Source of the DNA: a virus
IMG/VR virus record: IMGVR_UViG_3300008219_000036
Span: 1 to 37,944 of that record
Reading direction: 5' to 3' (one strand)
Length of the DNA stretch: 37,944 bases
Within the stretch, counting starts at the first letter, position 1, and every line of letters starts with the position of its first letter. The notes beneath the pieces are model-generated. The model was not told the DNA's origin, did not search any database, and saw only the letters and a program-made list of their open reading frames with translations. A program made the translations under genes and the position numbers. Below, in pieces: positions 14,199-15,746 of this stretch.

Positions 14199-14573
14199 AT
14201 GGATGGCGCAATTGATATCAAGCTGGTTATCACGATCGGTGGGATACTGTTCTCAGTTGCTGGAGCAGCAGCAGTAGCAAAACAGCAGATAAGAAGCCTT
14301 GTAGTACAGTTAATAGACATTGAAAAACGGTTAAGAGTACTTGATGGTCGCACAGATAAACAGCAGACTACTATTGAAACAAACGCACAAAGACTTAATG
14401 TGATTTCTTCAATGATGGACCCACCAACAATGGAGCGACGTCATAGAGAGTCAGCAAGTATTCTAGCAAGGATCAATATTCTTGAGAAGCAAACAAGTCG
14501 TCTTGAGCATATGCACAATGATAATCACCCTCCAGTAGCTACGACGTGGAATGGAGGAAAAGATGGTGAATAA
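14199..14573 (+). CDS. Membrane-anchored coiled-coil protein of the lysis block
   Basis: A 124-residue protein with one N-terminal membrane segment about residues 7-26 (IKLVITIGGILFSVAGAAAV), followed by a long charged helix with heptad spacing (QLIDIEKRLRVLDGRTDKQQ; later SILARINILEKQTSRLEHM). It precedes the endopeptidase gene and overlaps its start. Such single-pass coiled-coil proteins in lysis cassettes can be inner-membrane spanins or accessory proteins. A better spanin pair lies downstream, so the role here stays open. A ribosome binding site (AGGAAGAGAG) precedes the ATG. Confidence 0.6.
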   Translation: MDGAIDIKLVITIGGILFSVAGAAAVAKQQIRSLVVQLIDIEKRLRVLDGRTDKQQTTIETNAQRLNVISSMMDPPTMERRHRESASILARINILEKQTSRLEHMHNDNHPPVATTWNGGKDGE

Positions 14574-14970
14574 ATGGTCTAAGACATCGCATGAAAGATT
14601 ATCAAGTTGTCATGTTGATCTACAAAGAGTGTTTAATAAGGTTCTAATCTATCGAGATTGCTCGGTACTTGAAGGAGAAAGAGGAGCGGAGACACAGAAC
14701 AAATACTACGCAGAAGGTAAGTCTAGGCTCACTTATCCACACAGTATGCACAACAAACGTCCGTCACTTGCAGTAGATGTTGTGCCATACCCTGTACCAG
14801 ATTGGAATGATCCAAGACCATTCATCCGATTCGGAATGTTTGTTATTGGATTGGCAGCGGGTATCGATGTTAATCTACGATGGGGAGGAGACTGGGACCG
14901 TGACTTCGACCTAAAGGATCAGCGGTTCAATGATTATCCACACTTTGAATTACATGGAGTAGAAAAGTAA
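14563..14970 (+). CDS. M15 family peptidoglycan endopeptidase (endolysin)
   Basis: A 135-residue zinc peptidase of the L-alanyl-D-glutamate / VanY-like M15 group, which cuts the peptide crosslinks of peptidoglycan at lysis. Zinc and catalytic residues are visible: H63 and D72 in SMHNKRPSLAVD, a conserved RWGGDWD at about 107-112, and H127 in PHFEL. Length is typical for single-domain phage endolysins, and no signal peptide or binding domain is present. An in-frame ATG at 14551 exists, but I start at 14563 because GGAGG at 14553-14557 then has a 5-base spacer. It needs a partner to cross the membrane, and hydrophobic genes follow. Confidence 0.88.
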   Translation: MVNKWSKTSHERLSSCHVDLQRVFNKVLIYRDCSVLEGERGAETQNKYYAEGKSRLTYPHSMHNKRPSLAVDVVPYPVPDWNDPRPFIRFGMFVIGLAAGIDVNLRWGGDWDRDFDLKDQRFNDYPHFELHGVEK

Positions 14971-15152
14971 TGGACATGGCAGCTTTATTAGGTGAATGGT
15001 GGACTGTTATTACTTCTGTTATAGCACTCGCTTCAGCAGTTGCGGCAGTTACACCTACCAAGATCGATAATAATGCTATCGATGCAGTACTTCGAATTAT
15101 CAATCTAGCTGGTTTGAATATCGGTCAAGCCAAAAACGCGGACGATAAGTAA
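14970..15152 (+). CDS. Putative holin, 60 residues
   Basis: A small protein with a single predicted membrane segment at about residues 10-29 (WTVITSVIALASAVAAVTP) and a second amphipathic stretch (AIDAVLRIINLAGLNIG) before a charged Lys/Asp tail. Start and stop overlap both neighbours (TAATG). A small hydrophobic protein between endolysin and spanins is a good holin candidate, which would open the inner membrane for the endolysin at a set time. There is no single diagnostic motif for holins, so this is inferred from size, hydrophobicity and position. Confidence 0.6.
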   Translation: MDMAALLGEWWTVITSVIALASAVAAVTPTKIDNNAIDAVLRIINLAGLNIGQAKNADDK

Positions 15153-15367
15153 TGATAGCAACGGTAGTAGCCAAAGTAATAACAGGACTGCTATCGAAGA
15201 TTGCTGTTCCGGCTGTTGCGTTCGTCGCAGGAAAGAGGAGTGCAGCAGCCGGTCAGCAGAAGGATGCTATGGAAAAGGGAATTGAACGTGCCAAAACTGA
15301 TACGAGTGTCAGCACTATGTCTGACGATGATCTCGATAAGCAGTTGCTCAGGCATACTCGTAAGTAA
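15152..15367 (+). CDS. Putative inner-membrane spanin (Rz-like)
   Basis: A 71-residue protein with an N-terminal membrane segment at residues 3-27 (ATVVAKVITGLLSKIAVPAV), then a charged helical domain (KRSAAAGQQKDAMEKGIERAK) and a C-terminus with MSDDDLDKQLLR. That is the layout of an inner-membrane spanin, which reaches across the periplasm to its outer-membrane partner and helps fuse the two membranes at the last step of lysis. A second lipoprotein gene is nested in its +1 frame (15288-15491), as in lambda Rz/Rz1. It is short for an i-spanin, so its periplasmic reach would be limited unless it forms multimers. Confidence 0.6.
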   Translation: MIATVVAKVITGLLSKIAVPAVAFVAGKRSAAAGQQKDAMEKGIERAKTDTSVSTMSDDDLDKQLLRHTRK

Positions 15368-15491
15368 TGGATGCACTTGGACTAAGACTATTACCATTAC
15401 TAATGATGACCTTGGGTCGATGTCTCGCCATCTTAAAGAGCAGGTAGCTGCTCATAATATAGAGTGGGAGAAGAATTGTAAGAAGGGGTGA
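15288..15491 (+). CDS. Putative outer-membrane spanin lipoprotein (Rz1-like), nested start
   Basis: A 67-residue lipoprotein read in the +1 frame relative to the i-spanin gene and starting inside it. GTG at 15288 is preceded by AAAAGGGA (15273-15280) with a 7-base spacer. The product begins MPKLIRVSALCLTMISISSC: a basic start, a hydrophobic core and a lipobox ISSC with Cys20 as the lipidation site. The mature part (SGILVSNGCTWTK, then DDLGSMSRHLKEQVAAHNIEWEKNC) resembles small lysis-cassette proteins that end in an AHN-x-x-WE-x-x-C motif. It extends 124 bases past the i-spanin stop. Longer in-frame starts exist upstream (TTG 15201, ATG 15264), but they would bury the signal sequence. Confidence 0.6.
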   Translation: MPKLIRVSALCLTMISISSCSGILVSNGCTWTKTITITNDDLGSMSRHLKEQVAAHNIEWEKNCKKG

Positions 15492-15506: not shown

Positions 15507-15746
15507 ATGTTTAAGATTGTACTAACGATATGTTTTATGATGCATCAATCATGTATCAATATGGTAAGTAATGAGACGTTCGACAGTCCCGAATCATGTG
15601 ACGAGAACATTATAAGAGATAAAGATCATCCAATACTCGAACAAATCTTTCAGGAATATGGTCCTTTTAATTATAACGCCCAATGTATAGAGAACAAAGA
15701 TGAGCCTTCTACAGACGATTACAAAGCGCCAACAGCGGACATCTGA
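15507..15746 (+). CDS. Small secreted Cys-containing protein
   Basis: A 79-residue protein whose start (MFKIVLTICFMMHQSC) looks like a short signal peptide or lipoprotein signal; the mature part has Cys near residues 31 and 60, which may form a disulfide in the periplasm. AGGA with a 5-base spacer precedes the ATG. It follows the spanin pair and its last 47 bases overlap the next gene. Likely a periplasmic late protein tied to lysis or exclusion; no family is recognised. Confidence 0.5.
   Translation: MFKIVLTICFMMHQSCINMVSNETFDSPESCDENIIRDKDHPILEQIFQEYGPFNYNAQCIENKDEPSTDDYKAPTADI

Follow-up and report, generated by a model that had tools for sequence, protein, structure and literature searches.

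The window, the whole stretch of 37,944 nucleotides of viral DNA that was analyzed, very probably encodes a two-component spanin pair of overlapped architecture, consisting of the genes at positions 15152 to 15367 (i-spanin) and 15288 to 15491 (o-spanin). Judged from sequence, the two products would function in host lysis, and the pair, previously unannotated, is a new but ordinary member of a known family rather than of a new kind. The spanin genes lie directly downstream of those for an M15-type endolysin and a small membrane protein, the latter a holin candidate by position only (Table 1). In Pfam, the endolysin matched Peptidase_M15_4 below the cutoff.

Table 1. Features of the predicted lysis region of the window
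Feature	Positions	Strand	Basis or description
124-aa protein	14199-14573	+	N-terminal hydrophobic segment, coiled coil, C-terminal H-N-x-x-H-P motif
Endolysin, M15-type peptidase, 139 aa	14551-14970	+	PHROG 465 endolysin, E = 1.3e-31
Small membrane protein, 60 aa, one hydrophobic segment (holin candidate)	14970-15152	+	PHROG 9685 (unknown function), E = 3.3e-7
Putative i-spanin (Rz-like), ATG start, 71 aa	15152-15367	+	PHROG, held-out profile, likeness to L001
Ribosome-binding-like AAAAGGGA	15274-15281	+	Sequence; 6-base spacer to GTG
Putative o-spanin (Rz1-like) lipoprotein, GTG start, 67 aa	15288-15491	+	PHROG, tblastn, held-out profile

The earlier note on this DNA had described a lipoprotein gene nested out of frame in a spanin-like gene, on the Rz/Rz1 plan. 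The o-spanin gene is indeed offset by +1 relative to the i-spanin gene and starts inside it, and each product has homologs among annotated i-spanin/o-spanin pairs, but the two genes share only 80 bases and the o-spanin gene extends 124 bases past the i-spanin stop codon. The embedded lambda Rz/Rz1 type, in which the o-spanin gene lies wholly inside its partner, was rejected for that reason. An out-of-frame start inside the i-spanin gene with an end beyond it is what defines the overlapped architecture, and the window architecture is of this class, that of P2 LysB/LysC.

Profiles built from phage spanin proteins, with the window sequences excluded, were applied to 1016 frames of the window. Each ranked the expected gene first: 15288-15491 for the o-spanin profile (E = 3.2e-18; next best, 0.66) and 15152-15367 for the i-spanin profile (E = 1.6e-5; next best, 1.6). 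A scan of the window for short lipoprotein-like open reading frames with a ribosome-binding-like site returned 15288-15491 as its sole find, and the same scan found none in 30 dinucleotide-preserving shuffles. A chance origin of 15288-15491 was rejected on the basis of the shuffles and of the top profile rank of both frames.

The 67-residue product begins MPKLIRVSALCLTMISISSC, then SGILV..., and shows the basic start, hydrophobic core, and good lipobox (ISSC) that the earlier note had read from the GTG. These features identify a lipoprotein with a predicted lipid-carrying Cys20 and periplasmic Cys29 and Cys64, for which an outer membrane location would be expected. The ribosome binding site reported before the GTG is present, with a spacer of 6 bases instead of the 7 first given. 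The proposed likeness to known spanins was borne out by a match to PHROG 1275 (Rz-like spanin; E = 2.5e-13) and by tblastn, which returned 114 phage records at E values up to 1, including HK639 (E = 1e-9), AF (E = 9e-6), and mEp390; a Pfam search with the lipoprotein gave no match. Identity is 40.7% to the AF protein and about 36% to that of HK639. Met1, Cys20, Cys29, Ile35, Lys50, His56, and Cys64 were invariant in an alignment of nine o-spanins. A unimolecular spanin of the T1 gp11 type, which combines a lipobox and a C-terminal transmembrane segment in one protein, was rejected, as the C terminus of the lipoprotein is hydrophilic.

The 71-residue product has an N-terminal hydrophobic segment, a charged C-terminal part of about 44 residues, and no cysteine. 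Its matches to PHROG 1026 and 8821, both Rz-like spanin groups, are weak (E about 1e-3); Pfam gave no meaningful match, and tblastn against phage records found nothing. It shares with the i-spanins of the family a C-terminal motif resembling SDDDxDxxL. The protein would span the membrane once near its N terminus and expose its C-terminal domain to the periplasm. Hydrophobicity of the segment is only moderate (Kyte-Doolittle mean, 1.87), and the Lys-Arg directly after it disfavors a C-out topology under the positive-inside rule; basic residues at this place also occur in several i-spanin relatives.

An independent environmental phage contig (L001), reached through endolysin similarity, has the same gene order as the window: an endolysin (60% identical to that of the window), a 52-residue membrane protein at the position of the holin candidate and of similar size, a 66-residue i-spanin, and a 62-residue o-spanin, with the spanin genes overlapping by 74 bases. 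The i-spanins are 40% and the o-spanins 39% identical, and in the alignment the two GTG starts coincide. The lipid-carrying cysteine is conserved in an atypical lipobox (TANC, with Asn at -1). Relatives in viral contigs were obtained through the endolysin and by profile scan: the o-spanin as a single query returned no viral-contig relatives, and a diverse alignment had no segment of sufficient conservation for a scan. A regular-expression scan for lipoproteins around 79 relatives of the endolysin gave no clear spanin; because L001, with its atypical lipobox, was missed, this outcome does not show absence. When 40 virus records, many of them fragments, were searched by profile, the o-spanin turned up only in that of L001, and scans with the 589-residue downstream protein and with the L001 o-spanin found no further relatives.

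Two other readings of the locus were weighed against the spanin pair. As the earlier note had pointed out, the lipoprotein frame is open from TTG 15201, giving a longest frame of 96 residues, so that the real gene might be a longer nonlipoprotein of unknown function, or the frame might be fortuitous. We regard this as scarcely credible. The frame of the L001 o-spanin is open for only 15 bases upstream of its GTG, and in several phage relatives it is likewise closed just upstream of the signal sequence, so the long TTG frame is not conserved, whereas the signal sequence and the lipobox cysteine are, and the homology of the lipoprotein is strong. Loss of that cysteine, or conservation of the longer frame alone, had been named beforehand as what would count against the lipoprotein; the relatives that were checked favor it. 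It is also highly unlikely that the o-spanin alone has the proposed role and is partnered by the 124-residue protein encoded upstream of the endolysin, leaving the 71-residue frame to do something else. The 124-residue protein does have a weak match to the Rz-like spanins of PHROG 739 (E = 0.0023) and a hydrophobic segment preceding its coiled coil. However, it is the 71-residue frame that matches the i-spanins of the family itself and is kept beside the o-spanin in L001, members of the 124-residue family were found without such an o-spanin in three phages (L105, L154, and L165), and the L001 protein at the matching position carries its hydrophobic segment at the C terminus.

The known systems closest to the spanin pair are PHROG 1275 with PHROG 1026 and the BcepNazgul o-spanin family, which includes AF, HK639, and mEp390 under the overlapped architecture (Kongari et al. 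2018, PMC6139136) and also takes in PY100, KL1, and others. In AF, the endolysin is followed by an 82-residue Rz-like protein (i-spanin) and an overlapping 67-residue o-spanin; in HK639, the order is holins, endolysin, spanins. Homology and arrangement place the window pair with this family. It resembles the family in its overlapped genes directly after the endolysin, as in AF and HK639, in the length of its o-spanin (67 residues in AF), in the pattern CxW...K...H...C, and in the related C-terminal motif of its i-spanin. It differs in being about 35 to 40% identical, in its GTG start, in its M15-type endolysin, and in coming from an environmental phage without a close relative in the phage collection. 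The published o-spanin families were clustered at a cutoff of 40% identity (PMC6139136), by which the window o-spanin is borderline.

The pair shares with lambda Rz/Rz1 an inner membrane protein and an outer membrane lipoprotein in the +1 frame, but Rz1 lies wholly inside Rz and is proline rich, whereas the window genes overlap only in part and their o-spanin has no proline-rich region. Like T4 PseT.3/PseT.2, it combines an i-spanin that has no cysteine with an o-spanin that has two in the periplasm; the T4 genes are separated and larger, and the likeness rests on the cysteine pattern. In the published survey, the commonest combination is an i-spanin with no cysteine and a mature o-spanin with two besides the lipid-carrying one; T4 lysis requires both o-spanin cysteines (PMC6139136). 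The conserved Cys29 and Cys64 suggest, by analogy with PseT.2, disulfides. The earlier note had called partners of 71 and 67 residues very short, which they are not: AF has 82 and 67, and the annotated overlapping pair of Mangalitsa, with no annotated endolysin adjoining, has 78 and 69 residues. Published combined periplasmic lengths range from 62 to 300 residues (PMC6139136), and that of the window pair is about 91 if the inner membrane segment ends near residue 27.

After peptidoglycan degradation by the endolysin, spanins bring about membrane fusion, their inner and outer membrane components being bound to each other across the periplasm (PMC6139136). Here, the hydrophobic segment would anchor the 71-residue protein in the inner membrane and leave its charged tail periplasmic, and the 67-residue product would be exported, cleaved before Cys20, and lipid anchored in the outer membrane, with the o-spanins probably disulfide linked through Cys29 and Cys64. 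The periplasmic parts of the two proteins would bind each other, and once the endolysin had cut the peptidoglycan, the complex would drive fusion of the inner membrane with the outer, and the cell would burst. It seems doubtful that so short a pair, whose i-spanin has no long coiled coil and whose o-spanin has two conserved cysteines and lacks a proline-rich region, departs from the lambda coiled-coil model in how it fuses membranes.

Phages with a capsid protein 87 to 90% identical to that of the window share the 124-residue neighbor gene and carry other lysis genes beside it. One (L175) has a different peptidase-like gene and a 151-residue membrane protein and another (L176) a lysozyme-like gene and a 145-residue membrane protein, all named from reading the sequence; no similar spanin pair was found in either at the place matching window positions 14551 to 15491. 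From these few genomes, the lysis cassette seems to be swapped as a unit. The 124-residue protein is common to the related phages L105, L154, and L165, in which the genes directly after it are different lysis genes or other small ones.

The analysis assigns a lysis cassette to an uncultured phage without altering the understanding of spanins; the divergent members that it adds help to show which o-spanin residues are constrained (Cys29, Cys64, Lys50, and His56). Gene annotation frequently overlooks o-spanin genes or misplaces their starts (Kongari et al. 2018, PMC6139136), in line with the remark in the earlier note that the nested gene is easy to miss, and overlapping ones are again seen to escape gene callers easily.

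Some observations concern neighboring or related genes. In HK639, the homologous lipoprotein is encoded by 2492-2719, and the annotated o-spanin coding sequence (HK639_71; L083, 2570-2719) begins only after its signal sequence. In AsXd-1, the o-spanin gene (L088, 2486-2716) lacks an annotation. In LUZ100, the homologous lipoprotein (L084, 2468-2659) lies amid structural genes, with no annotated endolysin nearby, and is annotated as hypothetical. In the window itself, the spanins are followed on the plus strand by a 79-residue open reading frame (15507-15746) with a hydrophobic, cysteine-containing N terminus, whose only match is a weak one to PHROG 22960 (unknown function).
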